DNA from: Zygnema cylindricum
Lineage: Eukaryota; Streptophyta; Zygnematophyceae; Zygnematales; Zygnemataceae
NCBI GenBank assembly: GCA_037447655.1
Contig: JBBHKE010000488.1
Span: forward strand, 197,556-261,555
Length of the DNA stretch: 64,000 nt
Reading direction: 5' to 3'
Both the position numbers and the translations under genes were made by a program. The notes under the pieces are model-generated. The model was not told the origin of the DNA, ran no database searches, and was given only the letters and a program-made list of their open reading frames with translations. Shown in pieces: positions 30,656-62,659 of this stretch. Position 1 is the stretch's first letter, and each line of letters opens with the position of its first letter.

Positions 30656-32716
30656 ATGAACTTCAATGTTCCTCCTCTCCAGGTCGGCACTCAAAAATCT
30701 TCCAAATCAAATTTGTGCGACAAAGCAAAATCAAAAAGGCTGGATAACGAGGAGATTTTATACGCATTAAAGAATTTCAAAAATCTTGGTTTTGTGTTGA
30801 ATACGACTACATCTGTAGTTCCAGAAAGTAAGTCTTGTAAATGAAGAAAATATATTTCTTGCGTACCGTTATGTTTCACCACTATTAGTGTCGCATACTC
30901 TTTATGTTTATAATTTTCTAAGAATAATTAGTTGCTTGTTTCATAGCCATTGACTATCATTGAATTTATTTAATTTCAAGAAATTGCACCAATATTTGTG
31001 TGGACTAGCTTTTTATAAGAGCAAATAGAACTGGCAGACACAAACTACACTAAAAATGGTGGTAGCTATATATTTCAGACTCCTGATTGTTAAATCCACT
31101 TTTATGTGAAAGTTCTGTCAACTTTTTATATGCACTACACGGTGAATCGCTTTTAGCAATAAGAAGTAATTAGCATTAGGACTGTTTTAGAGTTCCATGA
31201 TTTTCTTTCCGGTTCAAATGACGTTGAAAATTTTGAACCGCTTAAAAGTTAGCGTTAAGAACAAAAATATTAGTGTTATTAACGCTACTTTATGTTCAGA
31301 GACCAAAAAGAACCGGGACCGAATTAGTGTTGTCAAAGCTAATGACTTTCAACCTCACTATTGATGGTAAACATAGTGGTGTTGATCAGCAGTTGCAGAA
31401 CGATTGTATCAATTGAGAAATATGTAGTGTTGTTTGCTAGAAAGTGTGATTCACTATTACCATTTTCTTAATAAGTAGATCTGGACAGTGTCAGCTGATT
31501 GTTCTGCTTGAGAAATTTGACAAGTGTCAAGTTGACAAAAAAACATGAAGTTTTGAGGGAATTTAAAAGTCAAGGCTGGTGTTGCAGGCGGAAAGCTTTA
31601 TTTTTATGACGCGAACTGTACTTCATTTTGCAACGAGCCTGTTTGGAAAGAGACTCGGGAAACACAAATTCACCATCCACCTCATCGGAATATTGAGGCA
31701 AGCGATTCCAAGGCAAGTTTCCTTAACATAATTACTTCAAACTAGACGGGGCACCACTTGTTGCCCACTGTTGTCTGCAAATGTTTTGTGTTTACCAGAC
31801 CTTCGAAGTTTTGCCCTCTGTTTTGTGCTTATAAGCTTTTGCTTTTTGTCCGTGGTGGTTTCAAAGTGATGCACATTTTCAATCTCCAAATATATTGTTT
31901 TGATATTCAGTTGAACGAGTTCGCACTTGGCCGTTCTATTGAGTTGTCAGCAATTATTCAAGGGCAGTGTAGTTATTTCCAGTTGATAATGCGCGAATAC
32001 TGGTCTTTTAATTGTTGTTTCTTGTTGGTTTTTTTGCTGGTCAGATCTTTGGAACAAAAGTGATTGAAAGCTGTTTATGGAACGGAAAAGAAATGACGGC
32101 TGGTTGCACCAACAATATCAATTCTGGTTGCCGGCAGATAATTCAACTGGAGAGTATGTGTGAAATAACTTGTTACGCATGGTTTTTTTTGTTAGTTTAC
32201 TGATGATGTTTCCCTTCCAAATTTGAATTTAACTTTTCGATAAGGTTTGTGAACAATTTATGGTATCAACAGTGTCCTCTTAAAAATGTATGAAAAGAAC
32301 AAGCTGAGAAGGTCAGGAAGGAGGATTATAGATGGCACCAGAATCACAATGGTGGTAAAACAAGAAGTTTGTTGCAGTAGAAAAGAATAGGTACTGTGAA
32401 CTAGAAAAACATTTCAAATTCAAAGAAAACATGACGTGAAATAGAAGAGTCAACAATCGGATAGGTGATGACAAAAAGGAAAGTAGGGATTTTAGGAAAG
32501 ACGGGAGAACCTGTGAAAATTATGAGCCACACATTTTCGTTTCCGATGTTTTCTTCTTGTAAATAAACTGATCAAGATTTTATGAAAAGCTATTTCATAT
32601 TGAAGGCAAACTTTAGTTCATACATGTAAAACACTGAACTTTTGCTAAAATTTAAGTTGTGTACGTATTGCAGGTGCACGGTCGTACTCGTTCATTACCT
32701 CAAAACACCTTTGGAG
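30656..32716 (+). CDS. Divergent CG-1 (CAMTA-like) domain gene, plus-strand unit
   Basis: Four exons match the exon pattern of a CG-1 domain: 30656-30827 (MNFNVPPLQ..., ends PE|S), 31588-31712 (SGKLYFYDANCTSF...VWKE, GC donor AAG|GCAAGT), 32045-32157 and 32674-32716 (TVVLVHYLK). Phases fit (1, 0, 2, 0). The last motif is the VLVHY strand that closes CAMTA CG-1 domains. It aligns almost gaplessly with the second domain of the 47-kb gene (first exon 172 nt in both). The basic DNA-contact block and FQRR motif of canonical CG-1 are lost. The Met used as start directly follows an AG, so it may be an acceptor instead and a 5' exon may be missing. Later exons may join at 33151 (phase 0). Confidence 0.65.
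31138..31360. mobile_element. CACCGTG-type MITE (second subfamily) in intron 1
   Basis: Left end CACGGTGAATCGCTTTTAGC after TA; internal blocks GAACCGCTTAAAAGTTAGCG and ATTAACGCTACTTTA are shared with 38712-38937 and 59069-59290. The right border is eroded and only approximate. Confidence 0.55.
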
Positions 32717-33150
32717 GTAAGAAAGAGTTATACAGAGTCCGATTGGTTTCCGTTGAAAATTTCCATTTTGCCTTAATTTGACATAGAAATGCTTGAGTGC
32801 AGTTAAGAACAAACTCAGAGAAAATTGTCTTGTCAAATGTATGGAGACTGTATGGGAATAATGATGCTATTGATTCTTACCATCTAATGGAAGCTCAAAG
32901 ACACAATCTTTTACTTTTTGGTAAGGGCTTGTAAAATCGGATGCTTCTGAATTTTGATGTTTATCAAATCGAGGGTAAATTTGATAGTGTAATTCCCCAA
33001 TGAGTTGGAAGCATGGAGGAGGAAAATATACTTCGGATTATCTTGTGTAATCTTTTTCAAACTTGCCACGTGTGCGTTTAAATTTCCAACTTTGCCGCTC
33101 TTTTTTGTTTTCTTCCCTCTGTATCTCACTTGCTCAATCTTGCTCTCCAG

Positions 33151-33285
33151 CCCTCTACCCTCAACATTAATGCCTTGGTCAAAAAAGCGGAAACGGAGTG
33201 GTTATCGAGAGTGAAATTCTGTTCTTAAATTCTTTTTCATCTATTGGCTTTCCATTTGCGACAATGCCACCTGGATTGCCAAACA
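33151..33285 (+). pseudogene. Orphan CG-1 first exon with frameshift
   Basis: Acceptor CTCTCCAG, then PSTLNINALVKKAETEWL, the CG-1 entry motif. A missing base after it shifts the frame, and the conserved remainder (SEILFLN ... PPGLPN|S) is found one frame over, ending at a GTAAGT donor in the family's phase 1. The length of 135 nt against 139-142 nt in sister exons confirms a 1-bp loss. No second CG-1 exon follows: the inverted duplication begins at 33598. The phase-0 acceptor fits exon 4 of the unit just upstream. Confidence 0.65.
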
Positions 33286-33669
33286 GTAAGTTCTCTTAAT
33301 CGATGTTACTTTCTCTAATAGTTGGAAGTGTTTCTCCACGTGTTTGTGAAAGGTATTCATTAGAAATAAAGGACCTTATGGTTTCATTTGTTAAAGAATG
33401 TAGATTGACGTTTCTGCTGTAACGAGACGTTGAAAGAGTGAGGGCGAAAACTGAACAAACTCGATATTCACAAGACTAGGATTTGAAAAGATAAGAAAAG
33501 CATTGTTAACGTAGGACATATTGATGCCAGTGGTCAAAGTAAACACTAGGCATTAATGATGTGAGACAAACTAATATTTGTGGTTTCTCAAGGTATCTTA
33601 TTGAGACAGTCAAAACTGCTTATATATGACCGCTCAGATGAACAGGCGTCTTCATGTGCACAGGTGGGA

Positions 33670-34110
33670 CATATACTGGGGCTTGATTGAGTTGAAGGAA
33701 TGTACGGCTTTAAAGTTATTAAAACGTGTGGGATTGAGTTGAAGGAAAGTTTTCAGAATGTCTGGGATAGAGTCAAAGGAGTGTGTGGGAATGAGAAGAG
33801 GGGATTTGTGGGATTTGAGTCGAACGAGTGCGTGGGATTGAGTTTAGAGAATGTGTGGGATTGTGTTGGACAAATGTGTACAATAAGTCAAAGGAATGTG
33901 TTGAACTGAATTGAAAGGACGTGTGGGATAGAGTTTTAGAAGCATGTGGGATTGAGTTGGAAAAATTTGTGGGATTGAGTGGGAAGGATTGAGGTGGACT
34001 TTGTGCGATTGAGTTAAGGAATGTCCGGCTTAGAGTTTTTTAAATATATAGGATTGAGGTAAAGGACTATCTGGCTTTTAGAGTTTTTAGATGGTGTTGG
34101 ATTGAGTCGC
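33670..34110 (+). repeat. GGGATTGAGTTGAA minisatellite upstream of the broken CG-1 copy
   Basis: About fifteen degenerate units of 25-30 bp around GTGTGGGATTGAGTTGAAGG. The reverse-complement array is at 62930-63360, in the same promoter-proximal position upstream of the intact gene. Confidence 0.85.
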
Positions 34111-34397
34111 AGAAATGTGTGGTTTTGACATGGAGTTTTTGCGTGGGAGGACAGAAACTATGTTTGTTGAGATGTGAGTTGCCCCTTCTGAAACTAACCA
34201 AGTGCATAATTTGACGATTGATATTTGCCATCCTTCCCTGTTTCTTTTGATTTGATTTGCCGTAATTATTCTGCTGATTTTTTTTTCTTTCCTTCCCTCT
34301 TTTTCGCTCTCTCCCAAACCCTTTTTGTCCTCCTCTTCCTTTCCGCTTTGACCTATCCCTCTCTGTCATACTTCAGTCGCCCTTTGCCTCGGAGACT

Positions 34398-34961
34398 ATG
34401 GAGAGCGATAGTTTCTTGTTTCGATTGGTAAAAAAAGCTAAAAAGAATGGTTACCAGCAAATGAAGTTGCGGTATTTTTGAAGAATGGTCAAAGATGCAA
34501 CCATCTTATTATGGAGACACCCCCTCAAAAGCCAAACAGTATGTTTTCAACCTTTTCTTATAGTGTATCTCTGTTCTTGATATGCTACCCTGCATACTAG
34601 CCTACATTGTTGCATTTTATGAAAGTAGTATAATAAGAGTCTTTTAAGATGTCTTTCACGAACATTGCCTTTTTAGATGAAGTGAGTAGATTTGCTCTTC
34701 AGTTTTGAGACCATACTATTGTTTGTTTCCATTTGGAAGAATGGTTCTAACGTCTGATTGTAATATTAGTAGTTTCCTGTGCATAAAGTTCCAGTTAATA
34801 TGAAGTTAAATTTTCAATTTTGTTTTTGTCTACTTAGCGGTTTAAAGTTTAAGACTAGTTTTGCAGGTGGAACGCTCTGGCTCTATGATAAGAGGGAAAC
34901 ACTGTTCTTTCGCAATGTTAGCCACACTTGGCAAAAAAGAACAAGTCATAAAAGTCTCACG
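34398..34961 (+). pseudogene. Broken duplicate of the CG-1+TIG gene (exons 1-2)
   Basis: Exon 1 34398-34538 (MESDSFLFRLVKKA) and exon 2 34867-34961 (GTLWLYDKRET). Against the source copy (62659-62069), exon 1 is 141 rather than 142 nt, a 1-bp deletion after KKA that destroys the frame. Exon 2 is 95 rather than 116 nt, an in-frame 21-bp deletion. Exons 3 onward were never copied. Splice sites remain good, so it may still be transcribed. Confidence 0.88.
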
Positions 34962-34999
34962 GTGAGTGGTGATACCCTTTTTTTGGTCACGGATAAAGT

Positions 35000-35577
35000 T
35001 CATCTGTGACGATACAATGGAGACAACCAATTGAGAGTGTGCCTCCTCACTGCGGGGTAACTAGGCAATTTTGGTAGTGGCATCGAAAAGTTCAACCTCA
35101 TTTTGGTGATAGCGGAGAAGAGTTTTTCCCATAAAAGTATTCAATTTGGAACTTTCATCCACAAAAGTTCGTGCCGTTATAATTCAACAACAATGCATTG
35201 GAAGGCCTATAACCGCTTGTAGCAGATGACATGGCAATGAACAAAAGTAAGAAGGAAAGAAATGTATAAAGACAACAGGTAATAAAAACAAGTAATCAAT
35301 ATATAAAAACTTAGGAACTTTAAATAAAAGGGAGAAAGTCAGGTGACTTTCTCCCTAATCTAAGGAGCTTGAGCGATTCTGTAAGGTCACTTGACTCATT
35401 GGCCGGATGGGCGAAAATAAATCCTTAATTTGACAACAGAAAATAAGGAACTAACTAAATAACGTACACTAGAATACTAAAGCTAACAAGATAATGTGAA
35501 CTGGAATGCTAGTTTACGTTATTAATAGAAACATAGAAAACTGAAATTAAACTTCTAACAAAGAAATAAACTCAACA
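35000..35577. other. Intergenic region
   Basis: No CG-1 exon 3 or other gene found. A short inverted pair (GGGAGAAAGTCAGGTGACTTTCTCCC, 35329-35354) can form a hairpin. Confidence 0.5.
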
Positions 35578-35795
35578 AGGGGGAAGGGGACGGGGACGAA
35601 GAGGGGGGTGGAAAGGGGAGGGGAGGGGAGGGGAGGAGGGAGGGAGAGGGAGTGGAAGGGAGGAGGGAGGGAGAGGGAGGGGGAGGGGGGGAGGGAGGGG
35701 AAGAGAGGAGGGAGGGAGGGGGAGGGGGAGGGGGAGGGGGAGAGGGGGAGAGGGGGAGTGAGGGGATGAAGGGTAGAGGGAGAGGGAGAGGAGCA
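35578..35795 (+). repeat. GGGGA/GAGGGA purine-rich tract
   Basis: Degenerate GGGGAGG and GGGAGA units, about 200 bp, polypurine on the plus strand. Reading frames across it are artefacts. Confidence 0.95.
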
Positions 35796-35988
35796 TCTAC
35801 TCTGTCACGCAGCTCAAAAGTTTTAACAGCTGCACAAATAGAAACAAAAAGAAAAAAATGCATTTGCAGCTCGCAAACTTTGCATTTTAAAAATCTTATC
35901 ATAAGGTAGGTAGATTACCCACTATAGTACATTTATCATATGAAAAAGGTAACAACTTATTCGATAGTAACCTTCAAAATTTTATATA

Positions 35989-37874
35989 TCACGCCATCTT
36001 AAGAACAGGTTCATTCCCGTCCCATATTACTATTTGATTACCCCTCCTACTGTCTTCCGAATGGGAATCTCTATTACATGCTTCTGCACGTGAAATAGAC
36101 GTTAAAAAGTCGGCTGTGACTAACGTTTGTTCAGAGTTAGACTTACTCCTTTCACTCTCTTCAGAGGTCGGTATTTCTTCTAAAGATCTCTCAAGGTTTA
36201 TCATTTTTTTCAATTTCGTCGAAACGTCCATCTGACCAACCAAAGCGGACAAACTTCCTTGTAGAGGATCCACATTATTTTTCCGCAACTGCGTCCGTCT
36301 ACTCCTCTGCAATTTCCATCCACACCATTCATTGTAGTCAGTACTGTCGTACAGTAATTACATTGAAGAAATTTGACCTAATGGTACATGGTGAACTGTA
36401 CGGTTTGCGGGTTCGGTAAACCGTACGTAAATGTGAAAAACTGTCCATACTGCACGATTCAAAAACGAGGATAAAAGTACAATACTGTAATATACCTCGC
36501 CACTAACAAGACGGACGCAAGGAAGACCTATTTCTAGTGAAACAAACGGAGAACTTTCTTTTCAAACATAAAAATAAGAAAAGGATAGTATGGCAGAATG
36601 CGATAAACAAAGGGAATGGCAGGTCAAGAGAACCGCACCCCTGATTGAAGATAGTGAACCAAAACAAATTTTTCCAATCCCGGGCTGCAAAATCGAGCAA
36701 TGTAGAAAAACTGTCAGAAAACTCTTCACCGTCGTCTATCGATAATTGCAAGACTTGTGTATCGAGGCAGAAATAGTGAAATAATTCAGGGTCGGACATT
36801 CTAATTTACTTACCGTATCAAAAAATGCAATACTGACTATAAAATATCAAAAAAGTTGCAGAAGTACATCAACAACCACAATGCCCGTGAATCATACCAT
36901 TTTCCATCGAATTTGAACAAATATACAAAATACTTGCACTTTCTGAAGTAAGGTGTATTAAACATCACGATACACATTGAGAATCGCAATTAAACGTTTT
37001 ACGTTACACTACTGCCCTACAATGCCCCTCAGTGTATCAAAAATCATCGTGAGTTTCGAATTTGACCCATCATTACAAAACGGCTTGTTGCAAATTGAGA
37101 ACTCAAAAAGAGAAGGGAAACATGATTGAATGTAACGTTTGTCACGCACTCTTCCGTTTTACTTTTTATCCAATAAGAACGTCTTTGAAAGGTGTCGTCG
37201 GTCTCCAAGTATGCATAGTAGCAAGCTATAAAGTTACCGCCTTCCGTCTGCCAGAGAACAAAACGCAAAACAGAAACAGAGCTTAGAAAGTGGGATTTAG
37301 ATTGTCGGAAAAGAACTCAAAAGTGATAAAAAAATGAAACGAAAGAGTCACAAACGCCCTTCAAAAAGGCGACACGGCTTACCTTCAAATCCGTGTGAGT
37401 TTCGTCGACGGTTTTATTATCCCCCTTCTTTTGCCAACTAAGGCCATCATTCCGGAAGCCCCGAACTTTAATTTTATCGTACACAAAAAGGGATCCACCT
37501 GCAAAAATTTCCAAAAAAGCCCAAAGTTCAACAGTGGAATCAAAACAGAACAAAAATAAGGTGCCAAAATTTATAATTTTTCATTTCGGCCTACAGCAAA
37601 CACAAACGAAAAAGGACGCAGTAATACTAAAACGCAATTCCAGTTCAATTTTGTTATTTCCCGCCTGGAAATGTTTGTTTAAAACACAGAATAACGTCAC
37701 TTTTAACAGTTGGGAGGGGATCCGATGGGACTTACTCTCTGGCTTTTTAGGCGGCGTCTCCATCAACGGGAAGTCAGAAATTTGAAAATTCTTCAAAAAG
37801 AACAGAATTTCGTTTGCAGACAACCACTCCTTTTTCCCCTTAAGGATTAAGAGACGGATGTCCGGAGAAGCGAG
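35989..37874 (-). CDS. CG-1 (CAMTA-like) unit, minus strand
   Basis: Exons seen: 37874-37736 (EWLSANEILFFLKNFQ ... PPKKPE|S), 37498-37383 (116 nt; SGSLFVYDK, FRNDGLSWQKKGDNKTVDET) and 37247-37150 (98 nt; IACYYAYLETDDTFQRRSYW). A probable short exon follows near 36940 (KYFVYLFK), then a region around 36799-36640 with an acidic frame (DDGEEFSDSFSTLLDF). A probable terminal exon is 36306-35989, ending in TGA. The CG-1 hallmarks FRNDG.W, KTV.E.H and CYY..FQRR.YW are intact, so DNA binding is likely. The first exon has no Met and starts at a good acceptor (CTCTTTCAG, phase 0), so this is probably the downstream part of the gene at 39332-47058. Middle exon borders are uncertain. Confidence 0.7.
36306..36640 (-). 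other. Intron or unresolved part of the CG-1 unit
   Basis: No exon border can be fixed here. The sequence contains paired GTACGG/CCGTAC motifs near 36345-36460. Confidence 0.3.
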
Positions 37875-38302
37875 CTGAAAGAGTCAGACAGACGAGAAAA
37901 AAGGAGGGATGAGAGAGAGGGCAAAGGTACGAGGGAACAAAACCCCCCCCGACTCTCCTCACTCCCTGTGATTGGGAGAAAAGTTTTTTTTTTTTAAATA
38001 ATACTCGAAACAAAACTAAACAGAAATGACTCAATAAGACGGGACATGAATAGACAACCAAGTCCATACCACATTTCAAAAAGTCACATAAAGCTTGAAC
38101 ATAGGTATTTTTTCTCGTTGCTAATAACTTTATCCGTGATATATTTCTCAAAATAAACCCCGCAATCCTCAATCTCGACCCAAACTTCCCTTCAAACCGT
38201 TGCCGGTCATAGATTTGCTCACCGGTATCGGGGAATTTGGGTGAGACATTGAGCTTCTCTCTAATGAGGACTTCAGAAATCGCGGATCTCTCCCTGCACA
38301 CC

Positions 38303-38614
38303 ACAAACCATCCATCTGTAAATAGCCTTCACCACACTCTTTTGAGTAGCAATCGTTTCTACACGAATTAGTATGGACCAAGGATCATGAAAACTCATAA
38401 TTTCAAAGCCTTTCACATAGGCTCTTATATTTAGACGGACCAAATTAGTTATCTGTCCTGGTACTATCACCAAAGGCTTTCCAGCGACTGCAACAGATGC
38501 AACTTCAAAGAATGCACTTTTGAATGCTGACAACATTTTCAGGTCAGTTTCATCAGAAAAACTTTCAAAGGAAAGTGATCTGAAATTTCTCATCAAAAAC
38601 TGTGAAAGTGGCCA
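38303..38614 (-). CDS. Possible exon of unknown function between CG-1 units
   Basis: A 100-codon frame follows a good acceptor (CACTTTCACAG at 38615): MRNFRSLSFESFSDETDLK, then KPLVIVPGQITNLVRLNI and DPWSILIRVET. Hydrophobic alternation suggests beta-strands, but I recognise no family. It could be an exon of the CG-1 gene upstream (39332-47058), whose exon 12 leaves phase 1 while this acceptor gives phase 0, so at least one exon would be missing between. The stop at about 38276 may be avoided by splicing. Confidence 0.35.
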
Positions 38615-38711
38615 ATGGGTAGTACATTATTGGCAATATTATAATAGTAAAACCGCTCGTTGATTATTAAGCATCCTTTTTAATCTCCTGCCATATTTTC
38701 ATTTGAAGCTA

Positions 38712-38937
38712 CACCGTGAATAGCTGTCAGCGTTAAGAAACATGCAGGGTTTACTTTACTTTTAATTCCTTTACTGCCTGGTTGCGGAGTGTTATTAATT
38801 CTTATTTAGGCTCGAGCCACAGGACAATATCCGACCGCTTACTACATTAGCGTTAAGAAAAAAACGAACAACATTATTACCGCTATTTTGTGTCCAGGGG
38901 CCAACTTAGTGTTAATAACGCTAATAGCGATTTGCGG
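38712..38937. mobile_element. CACCGTG-type MITE (second subfamily)
   Basis: Ends CACCGTGAATAGCTGTCAGC and TAACGCTAATAGCGATTTGCGG, flanked by TA on both sides. Shares TTAGCGTTAAGAAAAAAAC with 59069-59290. Confidence 0.75.
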
Positions 38938-39331
38938 TACTCTGAATTATTGTCGATTCGCTTACATCGACAAAGTCATGTAGAGCTTACACTAGATGAT
39001 GTCATCATGTACAGCGTCACATAAACACACTCAAATGTGAAAATATAAAAATCCTTGGCTAGTACTTAAGCACTTTTCCAACGGCTTCCTATAAAACCCC
39101 AGAAAAGACGGACCAATTTCTTTGTGGGACTGGGCTATTATAGTTTAACACACTAATCGGGATGGATGGTGCATGGCCAGATTCAATCTATTGACATCTC
39201 CTTTTGTAATACAGCAGAAAGAATTTGGATAGGCCCTGGTGATTCACAATTACTCATATTTCTAACCTACACTTGGGCTATGATGTATTAAGTTATTGAA
39301 AAATGACAACATCTACTTAACGACCACATAC

Positions 39332-42300
39332 CATTATCGCTGTCTTTTAAAATTTTCAGTGGCCTCTCATGGCTGCCATCGTGGTTGACATTTTCTCGAC
39401 TTTGGTTAGCCACAACATGCGAGAGTAAGTCCAATCCTGTAGACATTTTTCAGTAAGAAAATCAAAAACCGACTTATAGAGATTCTGCCAATGAGAAAAA
39501 AGTAATCAGACAGACATCTACAAGGTTTTCTCAAGTTGGGACGGATATCACCGCAGTCTAATGAAACAAAAGGTTTGTTTACAAGTCAGAACACTAGGAA
39601 TCAGCAAGAGATCTTCTGAGAAAACATGACCAGGAAGGCAAAGACTTCCAAAAGAATAAAAACACGTGAACCACCACTGAGTCAGTAAAGTGAAATAAAA
39701 TGATGATTGGGTTAAGGAATAAAGAGACACAGCAATGGCGACAAAACTCACACATTTTTGAAGCACATTTGGGTAAATATTAGGTCAGTGTGGACGAAAC
39801 ATCAAAAGTACATTTGACACAAAACAATATTGCAAAAAACAGGGTGCAAAAAAAATAAAAAATGTGTGCAGAATGTCCAAGAATGTCTAAATTCTGTAAA
39901 AGTTTAGTATAATGGACTTGAAACTATTTCCGGGAAAAATCCGTACAATTTGGTCCGAAATTTTCCAGTCTCAATTATTCAGGAAAATGCCAAAGCTTTC
40001 CCTGAGAAAAAAACTTACAAAAAAATACCTCAGAAGGAACTCGGCATTGTAACAAGATATTTGGGCAAGAAGTGGTGTTAAAAGAGTGAAAAACAACTTA
40101 CGGTTTGTATCAGTATTATCAGTAAGTTCTCCAATAACAGGTTTTTGGGTCACGCTCAACTGATCACTCTGATAACATCCAAACATCAAAAACCACAAAA
40201 ACCAAAAAAAACTGTTGAAATTTCATGTTAGAAATTTGGGAGGGTTCGACACGATTCAGTTCAACATGCTGTTTTATTCTCGCAATTCAATGTCTAATAA
40301 AGTTCTTTATTTGCTTGAGCAATTTTTTCGGTTGATAAAAACAAGTACATCATTTACTTACGTGTTTCTCATTGGTCACTTTTTTGTCTTAAATACCAAC
40401 AGGTTTTTAAGAAAATTATCATAGATCTCCTAGCATCCACTCATCCATGATAAGCAACAACAGTAGTTCCTTAAAAACATACTGTCCTCGATACAAAATT
40501 TCCACATCCAAACATTAAATGACAAATGAATAGGACAAACATTGAGATTGACCAGCCACTTACGGACATAACAGAACAACAATTAATTGCTTCCATTTCG
40601 TGACAGGATTATAATAGTCGTAAAATATTCGAGAAGCAATGTCGTTGATTGACTAACGTTTTGATTGAAATTTGTCCTCAGATGTCTATTGGCAATTTTG
40701 CGTGGAAAAAAAAAAGCATTTCATGGAAATTGAATGGCCTCTGGATAACTCATTGGCAGCTCACCTTCACACCCGACTTGAGGTAATGAACAAGTACAGC
40801 TTTGTTCCTGCAACATGTACAAAATTTGGAATTTAGTATTAGGCGATTTACGCGACTTATATATAAATATTTTCCGTAATTTCTCATATCCACTATCTTT
40901 GCCTTCAGCACCGACATAAACATTTTCGTTTCAATGGACGAACGGACAGATTTGAAATCACTCTAGTCAATGTTTAAATTCATACCATAACAACCAAAAA
41001 CTGAATACACCAAACAAAGGGACACATACATGTTTGTTGTTAACAAGAAAAACACTTTGGAGAAGAAGCCTCGGTAAAAGAAAAGCAGCTATAGAGAAAC
41101 CGACATTTCAAACATACATTTCTGTTGAACTCTCCGTCAGCAAACGGTAACAATATCGTTGGTGCAACACTCCGTCGTCAGATTTTCCTTCTATTAAACA
41201 TCTCTCCAGTACCCTCTTGTTAAGCATCTGCCCATAAAAAATGCAACAAAAAAACAGAAAAGTTCATCTTCAGCTACAGATAAAGTATAACTGCTCGACC
41301 GGTTTTATAAAACCGATAGAAAAACCATCAAATGCAAACTCATAACCCTGTAACAACTCTCCTACCAAAACAGCAGTAGAAAAAAGACCAAATTGAACAC
41401 AACTAACACATAAAAAGGAATGGAAGACAAAATAAAATCAATGTCACACATGGCATTAGTCATGCGCAGTGTGCCGCAAAAGTCCATAGTTTTAGAATAT
41501 GATACAAGAGAGTACTCCTGACATAAAAAAAACCATCGTGCTTCTGTTTTCTCCACTGCATGATACATATTGCAATACAGTAAGTACAGGGAATATGAAC
41601 TTCAGATACGTCAAATCTGAATGTCTGTAAAAGACTAGCTTCATCATTAACCTATATCTGTTTTTGTCTCTTTAGGCCAAAAAACTGTTCATACTGTTTG
41701 TCCTTTGTTTTTTGTTGCGCGCGAGTGCAGTTGTGATTAGCACAATATTCTGACGCTTCACTTCGGCCTTACATAATGTAGTTTATTAGGTTATTTGTAT
41801 TGGTCTTCTTTCATAGAACGCTTTCTGGATGTAAGTTTTTACTAAAGACTCTCTCAAAGTTAAGAGCCATTTTAAGCATCTTATTGACATTATTTTCCGT
41901 CTTTCGATACAATGTACATAATGTAAACATCAAACAAAAAATGGGAATTGACAGTCACACCACCTAATTAAACGTTTTGAGTGATGTTTTAGTTACTCAC
42001 GGTAATAGTCTCGTGGGGTGGATGGTTGACTTGTGAAGAGGGGAACGTTTGTTTCCAAACAGGCTCCGTACACAACGAGGAGCTGGAATTGGCACTACAA
42101 AGATGAATATTTTCACCTGCAAATGAAACCTTTTACATTATATTTAAATCAAAACTATGTTTCAGTTTGACATCTATAAAGCAAAACAATTCACGGATAT
42201 AGTTAAGCCCATACGGTAAGGAACATTACCTTGAAACAACTAATGATTTCTTGAAAAACCCAAATATAATTCTCTCAATTCAAATGCTTCTGCAGATAAT

Positions 42301-45300
42301 GAGACAGAAAGTCAAGAAAGTCAAGAAAGTCAAGCTTAAAATTTGACACAAGCTTTGACAAGACTACAGGCCAAAAGTTGAACCCGAACTAAGAAACAAC
42401 AACAGGCAAAAGACAGCTCAAGGAAATGAAAAGGAAAAAGATGTCCGACAGCTCAAGGAAATGAAAAGGAAAAAGATGTCCGAAGACTGGAAACTCAATA
42501 TATACAAGAAAAAGGCTATTTCTGCGAAGAAACTTACTTTCAGAAATGTCTGATGTTTTCGTATATACTGGAAAACCGAGTTGTTCATGATGATAAAAAA
42601 CAAACAAAACCTCCCAATCTTGCAACAGCTCTGATTTTCCTTTTTCACGCAAACTTGACTTGATGTCCTCCGCTTCAGAGGGGTCAGGAGGAGGAGGGCA
42701 GAGAGTCCACTGCAGTCGCCAAAAAAAGAAATAAAGAGACAGAAAATAAAAGAATCATTAGGTCATTCAGAACACAAGTTGAACAAATGCCAGTAGTAAC
42801 TGATGGAAAAGGGAATATGTTACTATACAAACGTCACTCTCCAAATCTTCCATAAACTATGGAAAGTGATGGACGTATTTTTCCAAAAAATATAGAGGTT
42901 TATGGTCTTTTACCCGAGAAGTTGGCAAAGGAGGTTTAGCAGGACCTGCGATAACGTTCAACACTTCAACGGGTTCACTCGCAATATTTTTGTTTAAATC
43001 AGAAACATGAGTAGGGCTTATATTGACATTCCCTTCGTCAAACTTGCGTTTTTGAGATCCACGTTGAACTGTATCATCTGAAACATGCATCACGAATCAT
43101 AGGTCGTCAGTTTATTAGACAAGGTCAGTAGAAAAAGGTGAAATAACTTCTTTTCTATGGTTCATCACCAGGAAATGTCAACAGTTTCTTGCAAAAGGAC
43201 AAAAACCACCTTAAACAAAAACTAGATCGTGTCTTAGAACTAAACATAGCGAACTCCAAGAACAACAAGGCAAATTAGAAAAAAGTCTGAGTATGAAACG
43301 CATCAAAAATAAACAAACCCGCTTTTCCTTTTCATTACGTAGTCTAGATCACAAGTTGACCATAAATTTGAGAAAGCGTCAATAAAAAACGACAATACTG
43401 CATCGTTCCAAATAATTGCAACTTAACAACATCTCTATGTATAAGCCATTCAGTTATAAAAAAAACCAATCAGTTTAAAACCTCCTATTCCATAACTTAC
43501 TCACAAACCCTCATCTGCCAATAGACACCTTAACCAAAATATCCATTTCAATATGTCTTTCAATCATTTACTTTCTTATCATTTCTCTCATAACAATCCT
43601 GTCAAATGATCGTTTGCCCCGATTACCTTCTTTTACAGAACCATTCTCGCTAACCGCATCCAGAGACTCCTTCGGTCTATCATGATATGAATCAATATCA
43701 AATTTACGATGATATCTATCAAATCCTTCACTCTCTTTCTTTTCCTTTCCAAAACGATTCATTCCATTGTCATGCTCACTCGTAATACAGGAGACAGGCT
43801 TCGAACTTCCGGAAAGGTTTGAATTCCTCCTATTTGCCTGCAATTGTCAATCTCAGATTGAATACAGGTTTCCATGCCAAATAAAATAAAATGACAAAAG
43901 ATTACCTCGGGTATGAAAAACCCAAAAAGAGGAAAGTCATTCTGACTAACCTACCGTCTGAAAAATAAAACTGATCGAGAAATGTGAATGCAAAGAGAGA
44001 AGTGATTGCACACCTTGGTCCTGAGGTAATGAACTAGGACAAAATCAGAACTGCCAAAGAGAAACACAGATTACAATGTCAGTCAAAATAGCCGACAATG
44101 AGCCCTTACTCGCCAATGCATGTAATGTCAAATGTATCCTTCTGCGGGTTACTAAAATATAAAGGTAATGGCGTAGAAAACCGTGGAAGGAAACGCAAGA
44201 AGAAATGGATAATTGACAGAGAAACTTACCGATGTTTGCGAACCAGGTAATAAATTTGCCTTTGAAAGTTTTCATCATCTTGACTGTGGGCGTAATAACA
44301 TGCCACAGCATCCTCATTATTAGCCTGCAAAATTAATTCATCGTCAGCATCTGACGGGCTAAAATTACAACATTTCACAATGATGGTTCCAAATAAACAA
44401 AATGAAAACTTTGTTATGCTTGCAGTATATTTAACGAAACGACATTTGCCAAAGACGAGTCAACAGAGGAATTCAAATCATAAAAAAAGTGAACTGACTT
44501 TAACCAAAAGATGATCGTGGACAGAAAAATTTTACCCCGACTCAGGATAAGTGCTAAGTGAGGACTCCGGCTCTACATAGGTTATGCTGAGAGGACAAGA
44601 TGAAACTAATACGAGGCTCAAAATAGGCAAGCTCCTTAAAAGTTGACAGAAAGAATATTACAAGTATGCATAATCCCTGTGAATCACATCGAGGAAGACA
44701 TACCTTGAAATTAACATGAGTTTCATTGACGGTATTTCCACTTTTCCTCTTTTTCCACAGATGGCCATCATTTCTGATGGGTCGAGTATTCTTCCTGTTG
44801 TAACGAAGAAGAGTTCCACCTGTCCAAATAACCAAAGTATTTTCATTATTGCTTTGCAACATCGGCATCAAGCTGGTAATTCGATGTAATTAAATGTAAA
44901 GAAATGTAGGTTATTCTCCACGTATTCACCAAGGTTAAGTATATAAAATAGAGACATAGGCCTTCCCCCAACCCTCTTAGTGTTTTTTTCCATTTTTATT
45001 TATTTATTTATTTGTTTTTTCTTTGTGTTTTTTTGTTGGCAAATCCTGGACATACAAAAGAATTATTGACAACCCAATTTGTTTAAATGAGGCTCGTCGC
45101 AAGTACAATATAAGTCAGTCGAACCCGAATCTGTAGCAACGGGAGTTAGAAAAGTGATACAGCGGTTAAAGGTAACACGGTATTTTGAAACACGGAAAAT
45201 TTGAAAACGCGGTAAAACTTGCGAAGTTATAAACAGACGTCTCGGTTTCGATTCGTTTTAGTAGACATAACACTACGTTTGTACGTGTTTCAGTATTTTT

Positions 45301-47368: not shown

Positions 47369-47585
47369 CACCGTGTATCGCTATTAGTGTTAATGTTTTT
47401 TTCGCCACTTAAAACATATTTTCTCCGTACACACTTGTCGGATTGTGGATCTGACGGTTGCGATTGAAAGCTAACGTTCTCTGCTTCCGATTGGCGGTCC
47501 CAAACTGAAAATCCGACAAGTGTGTACGGAGAAAAGATGTTTTAAGTGGCGAAAAAATGATTGACGCTAATAGCGATTCACGGTG
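47369..47585. mobile_element. MITE, CACCGTG family, copy 2
   Basis: 217 bp, CACCGTGTATCGCTATTAG ... CTAATAGCGATTCACGGTG, with long subterminal inverted blocks around CTCCGTACACACTTGTC. Near-identical in layout to copies 1 and 3. Confidence 0.85.
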
Positions 47586-47761
47586 AGCGTACTTTTTGCC
47601 ACCTAAATTTGTCCGCGTTTTTTGGGAAATTTAATCGACGGTTGCGATTGAGAGGCAGGATTCTCACCTTCAGAATGACGGTCTCCAATCGAAAATTGGA
47701 CGTGTGTGCACGTAGAAATTAAGTGTCGAAAAAAACATTATTGTAATTAGCGAAACACCGT
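47586..47761. mobile_element. Degenerate adjacent CACCGTG MITE copy
   Basis: Keeps the core (GACGGTTGCGATTGAGAGG, GACGGTCTCCAATCG) and a right end TAGCGAAACACCG. It is diverged and directly abuts copy 2. Confidence 0.55.
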
Positions 47762-48126
47762 ATACCGTATTATACACTTACACCTGCGATTCCCGCAGTG
47801 ATTGGTTCACACCGTGCGTGACTAAGCACTGTACGCAATGTGTCCCGTAGTCGTGACAGCACGCTGCGCACGGTGTACGGAAAGGTGAAGTGCGGATGCT
47901 ATCCGTACTTTGTACCTTTCACGAGGCAATTACAGGACAGCTTTGGGAGTAATACCGACCGTCCGATTTTAAATTCTCGATTTGTTAAAGACAGTACGCG
48001 TAACAAGATAATTGACTTGTAAAATATTGGGATACACGTGTCTTCAGATGGTTTATTTATTCAATTATTCCACAACGCCGCCAATCGTGAACCGTGTCAA
48101 GCGTGCCATTTTCGTAATTACAAGTA

Positions 48127-48343
48127 CACCGTGAATCGTTATTAGTGTTAATGTTTTTTTCGTCTCTTTAAACATCTTTTCTCCGTACACGCATGTCGGT
48201 TTTTAGATCTGACGGTTGCGATTGAAAGGTAGGATTCTCAGCTTCCGATTGGCGGTCTCAAATTGAAAATCGGACAAGTGTGTACGGAGAAAAGATGTTT
48301 TAAGTGGCGAAAAAGTTATTAACCCTAATAGCGAAACACGGTG
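48127..48343. mobile_element. MITE, CACCGTG family, copy 3
   Basis: 217 bp, CACCGTGAATCGTTATTAG ... CTAATAGCGAAACACGGTG, flanked by TA (48125-48126 and 48344-48345). Confidence 0.85.
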
Positions 48344-48494
48344 TAGCGCGTTGGCAATCGTTTGACGATTAGGAAAAGGCGCGCTAAGCACGCCAAAGAA
48401 TCAAAAAGATTCTCTACGCCGTACTGTACCATGTTGGCACTTTAAAAAAATGAAAGGAAGGCACGACGACACGTCAAAGTAGCAAAAACACTGA

Positions 48495-50995: not shown

Positions 50996-52600
50996 GTCTT
51001 TTTTTTCACAACTCTATTCATTTGTAATTGCAATTTGAAAGTTTTTTTTTCAAATAGTTATTATGAATTAATGTGTTTTGACGTTTATCCTTTTTAATAG
51101 TTAAGATTACATTTGGTTTCCTTTTTTTTGAATTTTAGAATCCTTAGATTTATTAACCCTAAGATAAATATCTTAAGATATAGCTAAGATTTAATCTTGT
51201 TCAATGGCACCATTCACATTTAGGGTTAAGACAATGTTTTAATCGGAAGCGTCACATATCAAAAAGAATGAAGAAGGATTTAAATGAAAACCCTTTTTGT
51301 TGATGGTCTCACCATTGAGTCAGTTTTACACTAACATTGTTCTAGCCATTACTCGATCTTTATGATGGTCTCAGCATTCAATCGATCTTTATGATGGTCT
51401 CGGCATTTAGTCAATTCTATATTGTGGTTGTTTAAGTCATCATCTCATTCCTATTGATAGTTTCACCATCGAGTCGATTCTATGCTAACGACGTTCAAGT
51501 CATTGTCTCGTATATCTTGACAGTCGTGAGGGTGTGGCGAGTATTTCACAAGAATATACCAATTCTCATGTGATTTTTTTTTTGAAATTCAACTCTCTTT
51601 ATTTTATTTTTCATTAAATTGAACCTAAGATCAAAAAGAATGTTGAACACGACAAATGCGAATGTTTTTTACTTCAGCCAGGGTGGCTTTCACAGGAGAT
51701 AGGAAGAGACGCGAAAACATTCACTCTTACACACCTCTCTCCAAAGAGTTTATACACCAATCACATTAAGTTAAGCTCTCACTACTATTTTAGTGCCCAT
51801 TGTTGCTAGAGTTAATAACACTACAGACAACTTTTTTTGGCCGAAAATCATATAATGGTGTTAACAACACTATTTAAGGAAGTGGACTAAAATATGCCAC
51901 ACCTCTTTGCACTAAGTTAGTATTGTATTCTAATTTCTCATCAGTATAATGCAAATGACGATGGGCAATGTTTTTTAGGACTCTATCCGGTTTGGGATGA
52001 GGCCGAAATGAATCCAAACAAATCGGACTTTTGTTTGTTCTGTTCGTCATATTCAATCCCGGTATAAAATTGGTATTGGTTTTTTTTTATGGTTCGGTTT
52101 GTCAAATTGAAACCCGGTTTACCATGTCATATTATCCACCTTGAATGTTACGCGTAGTTTGTTTCGGCTGTTTAATGGCGAATGTTTAAGTTCAATTTCC
52201 AGTTTCCAGTTTATACTTTTGGGATATTAGTAAGGGTATAGTTTTAGAATTTGAATTGCTCATTGGAATTTCCAAAAGTCCACGTGTACTATGAGCCTTG
52301 GCCTTTCGGGTTGTTGATTTTGCGAAATGTTGTACGCATTTTACCTTTGGAGTTAAAGTCAACATTTCACATGTAAACATCCTATATGGGACGAGGCGTC
52401 GCTAACTTCCTCTTATGTGTGACGTAAATTAAATGTGACACGAACACAAGCCGGTTGTTTTCCATTTCCTCGCTTCCAAAAAAAAAAAAAAAAAAAAAAA
52501 AATATGAAATGTATTGCGAGGATCTCATTGATAGCAATGGCAAATGGATCGCACGTGCCATCGACGCGTCCTTATTGGTTATTACACTCTTTCCAAGGCG
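50996..52600. other. AT-rich intergenic DNA
   Basis: No gene recognised. A degenerate tandem motif (GATGGTCTCACCATTGAGTC and variants) occurs about five times at 51300-51520. A poly-A run (about 25) lies at 52478-52502, compatible with an old retroposed 3' end. Confidence 0.5.
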
Positions 52601-56424: not shown

Positions 56425-59400
56425 TCAAGGTTTCACAGATTTTCTTTCCGGTGGTTCTCCCCAAGCATTAACATCCTCTATTTCCCTAGGTTCACTGCGC
56501 ATTCGCTTTTTGGGCATTTTTGGGCTCAAATCATCGTTGAAAGAATTTGTCGCCTTTTTCGAAACACTTTCTGTCTGTTCAGAATCCATCAAAGGGAACT
56601 GCTTGTGTTTGCTCAAACTTCCGCCCCTTACCAACGTCTGTGTTCAATAAAGACAAAACCGAAACATTGACAAACAACAGAAGCAAAAAGAACAGTTAGT
56701 TTCCTTGCCGAAAAAAAAAAAGATCGAAGAGGCCTTAATACATCAAAAAAGCATACATGCAAACATTCTTCAAGGTAAACATATTGACTGTAAAAGAGTC
56801 GAACTCTTTAGGATCCTGGATTAATAATCGCTGAAGATTTACATACTGGAGGCTATTTTGTAGGACAAAATAGCTTTATGTATTAACATCAAAATTAAAT
56901 TGTTTTTGAAAACAAATGAGCCTACTATTCCATAATTTCATAAGCAATTGCCTTTTAACCAAATAATACATCGACAAACAGACTCTCCGCTTCACAAAAA
57001 TGAAACGTTGAGAAAATGAAAAAATCGACAATTAATTGACTTACATAATTGAAAGAAAGAACCACCAGTTCAAGTATTGCACACGTTGAGACAGACAAGC
57101 TTTTTCACCTCCCAAACATGCACTTGCAATATAATGACATGTGTCCCTATAACAATGTACGACGCATTTCAGACTAGACTGAAAACAACTCTTTTTCAAA
57201 AGAAAGATCTCAGCCGCAACCTGATTATGCCCTTCCTTAACAAACCAAAATGATACCTGAGTTTTTCGTACTGCAAAGAGCTTTGTTTGATTCACAAACT
57301 CTAGCTCTACACACTTTCTGTGTGCCATTTCATTTCCTATTGTCACCCAGACATGAAATTTGCTGCAAATCTCAGGGGGGATATCGCAACGGAGAACCCC
57401 CGGATGAATCATTTCAGCTTTCACTTCCATTTCGAACATTAGGCCCCACCAAAAATCCACTGCAGGTTTGAACTTTACGCCCCAATTTTCCGCTGCCGGT
57501 TCGAGCAAATCTATGTCTCCCATTATCAAGAGCTGCATTTTTAAAAACCATACTTCTATCAGAGGGCTTTTATACTTTTCAGCCAGACCCAAACTCAAAC
57601 AAAATTTATTTCCTCAATCGATGATGCATCCTTCTGATGGACAAGTACACAGATATAGAATGATCAAGGTAACCTCCGATTAGTGGGTAAAACTTTGCGT
57701 TATAATTCACTGCGTTGTTACTGATAACAACAAGTACAAACCTACTTTTTAACACATTTGGAGAGCTTCATGGCAGGAAAATCACAAATACCAGCCAGTC
57801 GAGTAAATAGCTTTTTCAAAAATAAACCTGTTTGGATTTTAGAAAATGTTTAACTTCAAGATTTGTCAGCTGTCTTCGTGCCATGCTTCTTAATCCATAA
57901 AACAACATGTTGGCTAAATTTTATAAGGCCCCTAATTCTCTTTCCCCTCTCCCAAACCGCCTTTTTCTCTCTCGTGTGAGGAACAAATTTTCTCTTTTTT
58001 TCTGTCGCTGTCACTGTCTGCATATGTACCTGTCTGTGTCTATCAAACTGTCTCTATCTGTTTGTATCCTTATCACCTTTTGCTGACTGTCAGGGTCTGT
58101 CTCTGTTTGTCCATATGCATGCCTTTCTCGGTTTCTGTTTGTATCCTTATCACCCTTTGGTGACTGTCAGGGTCTGTCTCTGTTTGTCCATATGTTTGTC
58201 TTTCTCGGTTTCATTATTTGGATATTTATATGTTTATATTATATGCCAGTACCTGTCCGTGTTCCCTCTCCTCTCTTCCTTCTTTGTCCCCCCCCCCCCC
58301 CCCTCTCACCTCCCCCTTCCTCTCCCTCCACCTTTCTCTTTCACTTTAAACTTGATTCAAAATCGACGTACCTGTGGTGCACCCATTTCAGAGTAGGTAA
58401 AGTAGCAATGTGTCACTTTAAACCTTTCGCTTAGCTTTGCATTGTTTGGTGAATTTACTTCGTCTTCTTCATTCATTTGGACAGCCTCATCGTTCCATTT
58501 TGTTCCTGGAGTCATTTTAAACAAAAGTGAGTGTAAGCTTTTTGGGTTCTCTTTGACAAACAAAACTGCAATGATTCCTTACTCTAAATATATGTTCAAA
58601 AAATGGTCAGGTCATTCAAAACCAAATCTGGAAAAATGGACATTTAAAAGAAACAGCCTACAAATCCTATCCGTGAATGACACTCCGTGATACCTACCTG
58701 TTGTTACTTCAAAAAATTCTGTAAGATAACCGCTTCATGCAGATGGAGTTTTTAAGAATAGGCGAAGGACAGTTAGATTTTTCACCTAAAGAGAAGTTGC
58801 TCCACAGCTTTTATCTTCCTGACAAATGGCAAACACTCTAAGGTTTCATATCGGTGGTCTTTTTCCAATACCAGGTAATCGGCTTTGTCGAGATACCCGA
58901 TATCTGATCATTGGTCCAATACCGTAGTGCCATGCAATTGTACCGCAATGCCTGGTTCAACATTTTTTCTTTTTATCCTTGATTTGTACAAGTTTTGGTC
59001 AAAGATTCTGGATTTTGTACTCTTAAGTTTGATAATTTTATGTGCATTGGCAACCCGCCTTTTAAGTACACTGCAGATTGCTATTAACGTTTAGGAAAAA
59101 ATAGTACGATAACTGTTTTAGTATTAACAATCCTAATTTTAGTCTGAATGATGTGGACAAATTTGAACCGCTTAAAGAATTAGCATTAAGAAAAAAACAA
59201 TCGATGGTATTAATAACGTTCTTTTACGTTCAGAGGGGAAAAAGTAAGAGACGGAATTAGAGCTATTAACGCTAATAGCGACTCACAGCTCAGATTTATA
59301 CTTTAATTTGTACTCCACGACCAAAAAAATTCCAGGCGTTTGTACACCCGCTGAAACTAGGTGATTCTCTTTGAAGACTCGGTCTGCCGCTACTTATTTT

Positions 59401-62400
59401 TGGTTCAATTAGCATGACACTGAGGTATTAATAAAATTTTGACGACCAATAAAATCAATAATTCCAAACTAAGAAATAGCACAAAGACGAAAAAGATTTT
59501 GGAGGATATGGATTACAGCTTTCGTGATCCTAGTAGGCACGATTTCTCTATGGCGACATCTTAGCCACATAAAATTTCGTCGTCTTCACACCGTAAGTCA
59601 TAGGCTGCACTACTTGGGAGTATCTTCCTGTGGTGTGTACTTTAGTCCACAGTAATTTCTACACATCGGTAGTAATCAAATTTATCGCGCACCTATTATC
59701 GCTTTAAAGGCAATAAGTGAATCATTTATCGGTCAACATGACAAATATTGTAATCATGGAATGACTGATAAAAGGTAAGATCCTTATCGCTGATTATTGG
59801 CATGACAACTGACACAATTCAAAACTCTTGAGCCTTTAACTGTGCTTTTACATGAATTGCACATAACATGCCTGCAGATAAATGGGAAGACGAAATAAAA
59901 AACCAAAACTGGTTCTAAGACAACCCAATAAAAAACGCGGAATTTTCTTGCCTGTATCTTCCCATTCAGGCAGTCGGTCCCATTCTGGTTCTTCAGGTAA
60001 TAAAAGTTGAAGTTCATTGAAAAATGATTCCAGTTCGGAATCCTGTTGGAAGGTACACAGGGTTTCATGTTTCAGAATCATTCAAATAAGACAGCAGCAT
60101 TCCTACAGTGAAATTACTTCAGTGTGAACTATGCCTAGCTGCCAAAATTTGTAAAAGATGCATTACAACAACCTTAACACCACAACAAATAGTGAAAAAA
60201 GAGTTATTCAACATCCACACCTTTGGTAAGGTTGGAGACGATTGTAGACTCAGCTCCACTTCTAGAGGGGAAGGTACAGGCCCTGGGTTAAAGGAGTCGA
60301 CTTTTGCTGAATCCCAGAGCCCAATTGTCACAGAATGAAAGTAAATTAGCAATAATTCTGCCCCGCAAGAAAGCTAAAAAAGTGATTGGCACAAATTGTA
60401 CTCAGCTTAACAACTCAAGATACAAGTTTTTCATTTAATATGTTGAAAATAATCACAAATTTTATGTGATGCTAAGAGTCCGATTTCTATTCATTAATTG
60501 GAAATCTCCCACATGTTTAAGACAAAAAATGTTACGATTGGCTGGATATTTCTCTTCGCACAAAACACCACCTAAGAAATACACCAAAATAGAAGTTGCC
60601 ATCAAATATTATTAGTGTTGTAGTGTGATGTGTTATTATTGTTGTGTTGGAGCTTTCCGATTAGCAAACAAGTGTTCTTAGCTTCAGCTAAAATTCAAAC
60701 ATTCTTCGCTGTGGAACAGGGTGTACCTGTAATTTCCCCTCCAACTGCGTGGTGATCCTCAAGAAACAATTCTCCAATTTCTTGACGTTGGGCTGGAAAA
60801 AAAGGAAAAAAACAACCATCAATTCTTCAGCAATTTCATGACTATGAAAAGTACAGACGACAGAACATACTCAACACATAGGATCCAATTCCTTCAGATG
60901 ACAACAATTTGCAAATGTTCCAAGAAAGTAATCACAGCTCTAAATACTTCTTTTTGAAATGCTTTCAATGAACTAGATTAAATTAGCAGTTAGAACCAAT
61001 TCCAATAACGCCATTGATATACTTCACTCGTGATAATATTTGTGGAAACCACGTTTGTTCAATCTACACATATAATCATCGTCAACAGTTATTATCTAAA
61101 ATGATTTACTGAAAGAGCTCATTCTTCCCACCATGGTTCAATTATTGTCAACATCTCCACAAAGAAACTTGCAAAAAACCACATGTTCAAACCAAATTAT
61201 TCTCGTTAGTCACTGATGTATAATATGAGAGCTTACTCTCCATATCTGCCGCAAACAGTTCCCAAAATGAGTTATCCATTTCTCCATTGGAAGGTGAATA
61301 ATGTTGCAAAACAGAGTAATTTCCAAGTGAAGATTCTTGAGAAACCATTACTTCCTGCATTTCCACTCATGACATCACTTCAGACTTAGATTTCGTTCAA
61401 AAAATCATCTTCCCGAAGAGTCGTTGCTTTGGAGAACAATTCAAAACAAATGAAAATAATGGAAGTAATGCACCTTCTTTTGAAGATAGTGAACTAAAAC
61501 AAAGTTTCCAATTTCTGACCTGCAAAATAAGAGAAAAAACAAGTTTTATACCCAAAAAGAATGGGCGAAAAAAAAATCTGGCACACTGCAGACGTCTTTG
61601 AAGCCGCGTAGTAAAATAGAATATGGAAAATGACTTAACCTTGCCAACATTCCCTACTTTCCTTTCTGACCTCATAAAGAGCATTATCACCGCAGCTTCA
61701 GAATCCTTTTTCTCTGATACAGTTGGGAGTTTTTTGATATCCACGTTCATACCAAAGATGTAGAATGAAATGAAGGAATTATTAATTGAAAACCAACCAG
61801 CACTATAAATTCTTGGAGATGTAAGAACAAGCAAAAAGAGGGCATCATTCTTTGAAGGGTTAGAAAACATACTCTTCAATGGAATTACGAATCCAATAAG
61901 AACGTCTCTGAAATTTATTATCACTTTCTAAGAAAGTATAATAGCATTGTACCTTTACACCATCCTTTGTCTGGTCAACAAAACAAAACAGAGGGACCGG
62001 CTTTTAGATTCAAGCAAAATAAAAACAGCAAAGTAGTAAAAAATAAAAAAAAGGGTATCACCACTCACCGTGAGACTTTTATGACTTTCATAAACGTTTT
62101 TATTCCCGTTTCTTTTTTGCCAAGTGTGGCCATCATTGCGAAAGAACGGTGTTTCCCTCCTATCATAGAGCCAGAGCGTTCCACCTGAAAACTTTAAATT
62201 GCTAAGTAGACAATAACAAAAACGAAAATTTAACTTGATATAAATTGGAACTTATGCACAGAAAACTACTACATATTACAATCAGACGTAAGAACCATCC
62301 TTCAAAATGGAAATAAAAAATGATATGGTCACAAAAACTGACAAGCAAATCATCTAAAAAGACACAGAAAGACTTCTTATAAGACTCTTATTATACTGCT

Positions 62401-62659
62401 TTCATAAAATGCAATAATAAACTAATCGACAGCGAATGCTTACTTTTCATGTGAGCTAGTATGCAGGATAGCCTATCAAGAACAGAGATACACTATAAGA
62501 AAAGGTTGAAAACATACTGTTTGGCTTTTGAGGGGGTGTCTCCACGATAAGATGGTTGTATCTGTGACCATTCTTCAAAAATACCGCAACTTCATTTGCC
62601 GGTAACCATTCTTTTTCAGCTTTTTTTACCAATTGAAACAAGAAACTATCGCTCTCCAT
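56425..62659 (-). CDS. CAMTA-like gene: CG-1 domain plus TIG/IPT domain, short basic C-terminus
   Basis: Exons: 62659-62518, 62184-62069, 61970-61873, an unresolved one near 61710-61660, then 61354-61237, 60792-60727, 60306-60221, 60042-59952, 58505-58372, 57532-57257 and 56637-56425. Phases agree from 61354 to the stop. CG-1 motifs: EWLPANEVAVFLKNG, SGTLWLYDRRETPFFRNDGH, YYTFLESDNKFQRRSYW. An acidic middle follows (LPEEPEWDRLPEWED). The 276-nt exon encodes a TIG-like fold with the CAMTA signature HPGVLRCDIPPE. The last exon has PKMPKKRMRSEPRE, a likely nuclear-localisation signal, then TGA. Plant CAMTAs continue with ankyrin repeats, IQ motifs and a calmodulin-binding site; here they are absent. 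One intron (59951-58506) uses a GC donor (CAG|GCAAGA). The exon 3/4 junction does not keep phase in my model, so either a border is wrong or the gene is damaged there. Confidence 0.75.
57257..57532 (-). other. TIG/IPT-like exon of the CG-1+TIG gene
   Basis: 92 codons, phase 0 to 0, acceptor ATGCAG, donor CAG|GTATCA. The segment WWGLMFEMEVKAEMIHPGVL followed by RCDIPPE matches the CAMTA TIG pattern (FG.VEVPAE...GVLRC..PP), and VTIGNEMAHRKCVELEFVN matches its last strands. Confidence 0.7.
59069..59290. mobile_element. CACCGTG-type MITE (second subfamily) in a CG-1 gene intron
   Basis: TA then CACTGCAGATTGCTATTAAC; right end TAACGCTAATAGCGACTCAC. It lies in the 1.4-kb GC-AG intron of the CG-1+TIG gene. 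Confidence 0.65.

Follow-up and report, generated by a model that had tools for sequence, protein, structure and literature searches.

A cluster of CG-1 units in Zygnema cylindricum within an expansion of shortened CAMTA-like genes

CG-1 units at the end of a contig

In plants, CAMTAs connect stress genes to calcium signals; the family takes its name from its calmodulin-binding half. The window analysed here, a stretch of 64,000 nucleotides from Zygnema cylindricum, occupies the right-hand end of C376 (contig positions 197556-261555), so that contig and window end together at position 64000. A sequence-only reading had reported at least six CG-1-derived units in it and listed six, every one of which was found in its place, and a seventh, cut by the contig end, was added. 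Three of them (the 37-kb, 62-kb and two-domain 44-kb genes, named by approximate position) look intact in their CG-1 exons, here called A to D, and the others are fragments. The features of the window are as follows.

4674-4745 and 4962-5033: two tRNA genes, 56.3 bits each, 288 bp apart
13851-14095, 47360-47593 and 48125-48345: MITE-like repeat of ~230 bp
19318-22764: Copia-type retrotransposon reading frames, family assigned by eye from protein motifs
30656-32716, plus strand: single divergent CG-1-like domain (CG-1L), exons 30656-30827, 31588-31712, 32045-32157 and 32674-32716
32726-47742: segment with a C1828 counterpart close to that contig's end, in pieces of 76-93% identity (longest piece 6013 bases at 93.0%)
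33151-33285, plus strand: orphan CG-1 A exon, its translation frameshifted
34398-34961, plus strand: broken copy of the 62-kb unit with a frameshift in its A exon; B exon 34867-34961
35989-37874, minus strand: compact CG-1 gene, exons 37874-37736, 37498-37383, 37247-37150 and 36684-36639
~36308-35989, minus strand: proposed terminal exon of the compact gene, its frame without support from codon pattern
39332-47058, minus strand: two-domain gene, both ends as proposed by the sequence-only reading
~46821-46698, 44819-44704, ~44324-44230 and ~44045-44011, minus strand: CG-1 exons of the two-domain gene
43843-43571 and 43096-42893, minus strand: uncertain linker ORFs of the two-domain gene
42664-42536, 42116-42001, 41224-41126 and 40809-40768, minus strand: CG-1L exons of the two-domain gene, ends of the first, third and fourth approximate
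48401-51013: purine-rich (GGGAGA)n array, 2.5 kb, between the 44- and 62-kb genes
56425-62659, minus strand: CG-1 + TIG gene, CG-1 exons 62659-62518, 62184-62069, 61964-61873 and 61519-61474
~57532-57296, minus strand: TIG exon of the 62-kb gene, by match to the genome's own TIG-ankyrin exon
56637-56425, minus strand: possible last exon of the 62-kb gene, with an NLS-like PKKRMR judged by eye
63445-64000, minus strand: unit truncated at the contig end, with C exon 64000-63919 and D exon 63495-63445

When the joined exons were compared with Pfam CG-1 (PF03859, cut-off 23.5 bits), four window units matched above the cut-off: the 37-kb unit at 3.2e-34, the first domain of the 44-kb gene at 4.2e-34, the 62-kb unit at 1.6e-31 (with one residue mistyped in the query) and the 30-kb unit at 2.6e-6 (27.6 bits). 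The second domain of the 44-kb gene (3.4e-4, 20.8 bits) and that of locus L010 on contig C1313 (1.6e-4, 21.8 bits) fell below it, and such weak E-values are somewhat optimistic, as the exons to be joined were picked to fit. The reported second-exon lengths of 116 nt (four, both 44-kb domains counted), 95 nt and 125 nt were borne out together with their splice sites; A donors and C acceptors were checked, and the phases 1/0/2 were read off the sequence. The 125-nt exon (31588-31712), which has a GC donor, belongs to the 30-kb unit, whose subtype is that of the second domains in the 44-kb gene, L010 and L029. This unit probably corresponds to the latter half of a two-domain gene that lacks its first domain. 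The 95-nt exon lies in the 34-kb unit and has 21 nt missing; neither a C nor a D exon was found for that unit. The 34-kb unit duplicates the 62-kb unit in inverted orientation, 33595-34984 matching 63444-62046 at 86.5% over 1449 nt. The proposed terminal exon of the 37-kb gene showed no clear coding pattern when dN/dS was taken per frame (0.54 in the open frame vs 0.34 in a closed frame), and it holds a stop in L026. No solved CG-1 structure was found for the 37-kb domain, and of the best 60 of 299 structure matches to a plant CAMTA none spans the CG-1 part.

The TIG part attributed to the 62-kb gene is probably right, although not via Pfam: Pfam TIG gave no match on the window and none at any CAMTA locus genome-wide (its sole match is on C2015), whereas the genome's own TIG-ankyrin exon matched at 57451-57299 (E 6.2e-4). 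TIG is present in most CAMTAs, not all. Used as a genome-wide query, the TIG-ankyrin exon of a full CAMTA found seven places, namely six full-type loci, one with a premature stop in this exon, and the window TIG. As its only window match spans the TIG part, ankyrin was not found in the window by this query, and no TIG was found in the 37- and 44-kb genes. The calmodulin-binding exon was found at five places genome-wide (E<=1), all within the six TIG-ankyrin loci, and the same query at the same threshold found nothing in the window; IQ, looked for by Pfam scans, was not found there. A candidate calmodulin-binding remnant at 57291-57199 was rejected, its resemblance being weak and in another frame, with no match in the genome-wide search.

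Several other features of the window deserve mention. The two tRNA genes have the look of a tandem duplicate. The (GGGAGA)n array has extreme strand skew, and the long frames inside it are probably spurious. The ~230 bp repeat is self-inverted at 47.4 and 48.2 kb and has relatives in L010, L011, L016, L017, L019 and L032.

CG-1 copies across the genome and their duplication history

The genome searched comprises 353 Mb in 2689 contigs. Of 88 candidates, 36 exon matches to Pfam CG-1 at E<=1e-3 were obtained, on 21 contigs. Counting second (B) exons in the window and in 10 kb of sequence around each of the 24 places beyond it gave at least 30 (28 under a stricter rule, with the other two weak); close to each lies at least one other CG-1 exon. 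Against these 30 stand six TIG-ankyrin exons (plus the window TIG) and five calmodulin-binding exons, all three counts being lower bounds since only the best candidates were scored. This indicates that most copies seem to lack the calcium-sensing half; about 6 of the 30 units belong to full-type CAMTAs. B-exon density averages 0.003 per 32 kb, compared with four here (six with two CG-1L domains), and further clusters lie on C121 (three units), C178 (two) and C1313 (two). Assembly duplicates or haplotypes may account for some of the 30 units; between L014 and L015, the two CG-1 exons common to both show no differences, and identity is 98.6% over 1.4 kb.

On reversed DNA of the same stretches, no match reached threshold with the CG-1, A, C, A2, B2, C2, TIG-ankyrin and calmodulin-binding models; counts on real DNA are partly circular, as the exon models were trained on the window and related sequence. 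The model of the 14-residue D exon matched reversed DNA four times vs 33 times on real DNA, and D exons therefore rest also on position and frame. The full CAMTA L009 (exons hand-joined, without the D exon) had streptophyte CAMTAs as its best public matches, in the order of a EukProt transcript, then moss, flowering plants and others among the best 120 of 1142, and one match carries a gene identifier that seems to be from Spirogloea. No relatives of the compact forms were found among 1085 and 1529 public candidates, in a search that needs common 5-residue words, limits length and missed even ordinary CAMTAs for compact-form queries.

In a 35-row tree (from 40 rows, L010CG1L, L011, L015, L030 and L031 being dropped as short or gapped), the 27 own-genome rows group in a single clade apart from the eight rows of other plants (99/97). 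Together with the exon counts, this upholds the earlier proposal of a lineage-specific expansion of shortened CG-1 proteins. Within the clade, the 62-kb unit pairs with the 34-kb unit (100/100), the 37-kb unit with L026 on C307 (98/94), and the 44-kb gene with L029 on C1828 (99/94), joined next by L010 on C1313 (96/89). The four CG-1 rows of the window need at least three changes on the tree, in which several deeper branches have support <90 and the placement of CG-1L is unsure owing to long branches. On this topology the window units fall in at least three lineages, shuffled afterwards by segmental duplication.

Such blocks are seen directly. In its copy on C1828, the segment 32726-47742 has internal losses, the 37-kb CG-1 exons being among the parts missing. 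The interval 31921-34098, with part of the 30-kb unit, is copied on C2053 at 93%, and DNA around the orphan exon is copied on both C2053 (L034) and C1828 (L033). Introns are kept in the copies, which indicates copying at the DNA level. A whole-contig haplotype duplicate is disfavoured for C1828: homology ends at window position 32726, and what remains of L033 has no window match except to the retroelement at 19.8-23.8 kb (67-76%), with a diverged relative of the Copia-type element on C1828; C1828 might still be a divergent haplotype with rearrangements.

Copies outside the window show some further variation. Closely related full-type CAMTA copies lie on C121 (542-587 kb), C178 (21-52 kb) and C728, several pairs being 91-95% identical over 5-8 kb, and one of these copies has the premature stop in its TIG-ankyrin exon. 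In six copies of the full-CAMTA clade (L016, L017, L021, L022, L023 and L024), the 116-nt exon is followed by a GC donor (gcaagt); L018 and L009 have a GT donor there.

DNA-binding residues, the divergent second domain and selection

In Arabidopsis CAMTA3 mutants, W26, W75, H88, YY102/103 and Y132 are reported as required for DNA binding, and a W118 mutant as retaining weak binding (PMC10417383). All seven tested positions are kept in the 37- and 62-kb units, and all except W118 in the CG-1 domain of the 44-kb gene, so that these domains share the key residues of the CAMTA family (e.g. Arabidopsis CAMTA3/SR1). A compact group elsewhere in the genome (L013, L014, L015, L019, L025 and L028) has L at W26, for which CAMTA3 predicts weakened binding, and this counts against a simple CAMTA-like action there.

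CG-1L, which has the same exon plan, comes after a normal CG-1 domain in the 44-kb gene, its C1828 copy L029 and L010, making three two-domain loci here. It stands alone at 30 kb, a piece occurs on C2053, and L032 has an A2-like exon downstream of its CG-1 (15.3 bits). Relative to CAMTA3, W26 is replaced by R or L and YY by LW, CL or CF, and W75, H88 and, where covered, Y132 are retained. Judged by these positions, CG-1L has lost residues needed for CAMTA3 DNA binding, and it probably serves as a protein interface.

Codon comparisons indicate purifying selection in the compact group, with dN/dS of 0.11-0.43 in the 14 pairs that show differences (the 15th, L014-L015, is identical). The synonymous excess had p of 1.7e-4 (L014-L025) and 9.9e-5 (L013-L028), and the 37-kb unit against L026 gave dN/dS 0.20 with p 0.0017, all p-values being one-sided, uncorrected and from 7 hand-picked pairs. 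Exons C and D account for the last signal, exon B showing the opposite (0.5 synonymous, 4.5 nonsynonymous), and L026 is itself incomplete. Between the 44-kb gene and L029 no synonymous excess was seen (dN/dS 0.72, p 0.39), and no significant constraint was detected between the 62-kb unit and its only close relative, a broken copy (0.72, p 0.29). Some other pairs likewise gave little sign of constraint: dN/dS was 0.64 for L020-L031, and 1.02 and 1.25 for the full-type pairs L016-L024 and L022-L023. Compared with the C1828 copy, the 44-kb gene differs at 31 of 750 bases (4.1%) in its eight CG-1 and CG-1L exons and at 530 of 6853 (7.7%) in the remainder (p 9e-5); low-complexity intron sequence may inflate the value for the remainder.

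Origin and possible role of the shortened genes

The sequence-only reading had proposed one origin and local duplication for the cluster, citing the second-exon length and phases common to its units. Some pieces are indeed local, as the inverted 34-kb/62-kb pair attests, but the 116-nt length and the phase of the second exon occur in full CAMTAs too and are thus not evidence of local duplication; with at least three tree changes needed for the four window rows and the nearest relatives of the 37- and 44-kb units on other contigs (C307; C1828 and C1313), a single founder multiplied in tandem inside the window is most improbable. Just as little credence can be given to CG-1 exons travelling as passengers of a DNA transposon with captured pieces of host genes. 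The matches are scattered over 21 contigs with introns kept, and lie among repeats of which one is self-inverted near 47.4 and 48.2 kb, yet the ends of the observed duplicated blocks differ.

A more serious contender is that the window units are mostly dead debris, partial CAMTA copies strewn by segmental duplication and repeats, with working products only from the full CAMTAs. Much in the window has this appearance: the 34-kb unit, the orphan exon, the 30-kb unit and the contig-end unit are broken or partial, the terminal exon at 37 kb is without a clear coding pattern, and the 44-kb gene is without synonymous excess against L029, just as L026, L030, L031 and others elsewhere lack some exons or carry stops. 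Against it, three window units retain all four CG-1 exons, the splice sites where checked and the tested residues, the compact group is under purifying selection, and the CG-1 and CG-1L exons of the 44-kb gene have diverged at roughly half the rate of the DNA around them. On balance, we consider debris a rather unlikely account of the cluster.

We favour, as a probable overall explanation, a set of calmodulin-uncoupled CG-1 DNA-binding proteins that arose by birth-and-death evolution and compete with a few full CAMTAs, with CG-1L as an interface. Ancestral CAMTA genes (CG-1, TIG, ankyrin and calmodulin-binding parts) would have been repeatedly duplicated in the Zygnema cylindricum lineage, the majority of copies retaining the four-exon CG-1 DNA-binding domain alone. 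Spread would have occurred by DNA-level duplication, followed by shuffling of blocks from a few kb to ~15 kb, and the window cluster may be seen as a birth-and-death nursery of the CG-1 family. The compact genes whose CG-1 exons look intact (37 kb, 62 kb with TIG, and 44 kb with CG-1 + CG-1L), if expressed, most likely encode nuclear proteins, predicted to bind CAMTA-type CGCG sites without calmodulin control and thereby to compete with or offset the few full CAMTAs; CG-1L, its DNA-binding residues lost, would probably act through protein contacts. Other families of plant transcription factors include compact paralogues with an antagonist role. That a streptophyte lineage has made a large calcium-uncoupled transcription-factor family, with a two-domain form whose second CG-1 became a protein interface and members that antagonise calmodulin-responsive CAMTAs, can be put forward only tentatively.

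Six loci here resemble ordinary CAMTAs in having a TIG-ankyrin exon, five of them with a calmodulin-binding exon as well, and the 62-kb gene has a probable TIG; most copies, unlike CAMTAs, are without ankyrin and calmodulin-binding parts. Plant surveys report up to 15 CAMTAs (PMC8591267) or up to 18 (PMC4854897), and a single copy in 6 of 28 'chlorophyta' surveyed (PMC8591267), compared with the ~30 CG-1 units here. No report of a similar CAMTA expansion in algae stood out among the titles and abstract openings listed. Chlorophyte CAMTA-like proteins are described as having CG-1, TIG and ankyrin without an IQ or calmodulin-binding domain (PMC4770041), and the copies studied here are likewise CG-1 proteins without the calmodulin-binding part; those forms keep TIG and ankyrin, however, whereas here ankyrin and mostly TIG are lost, and full CAMTAs exist alongside. 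Two CG-1 domains in one predicted gene are also known from two Nicotiana benthamiana CAMTA gene models (PMC6037683), from which, going by their description, our two-domain loci are set apart by a second domain that is strongly divergent and has lost DNA-binding residues.

A genome in which most CG-1 genes lack the calmodulin half would offer a direct test of how the DNA-binding half acts in the absence of calcium control, and would also allow compact paralogues to be tested as antagonists. It further shows birth-and-death evolution within a family that is small in surveyed plants. In L011 the CG-1 C exon (2868-2952 onward) occurs three times in tandem at ~325-340 bp spacing, the last two peptides being identical.
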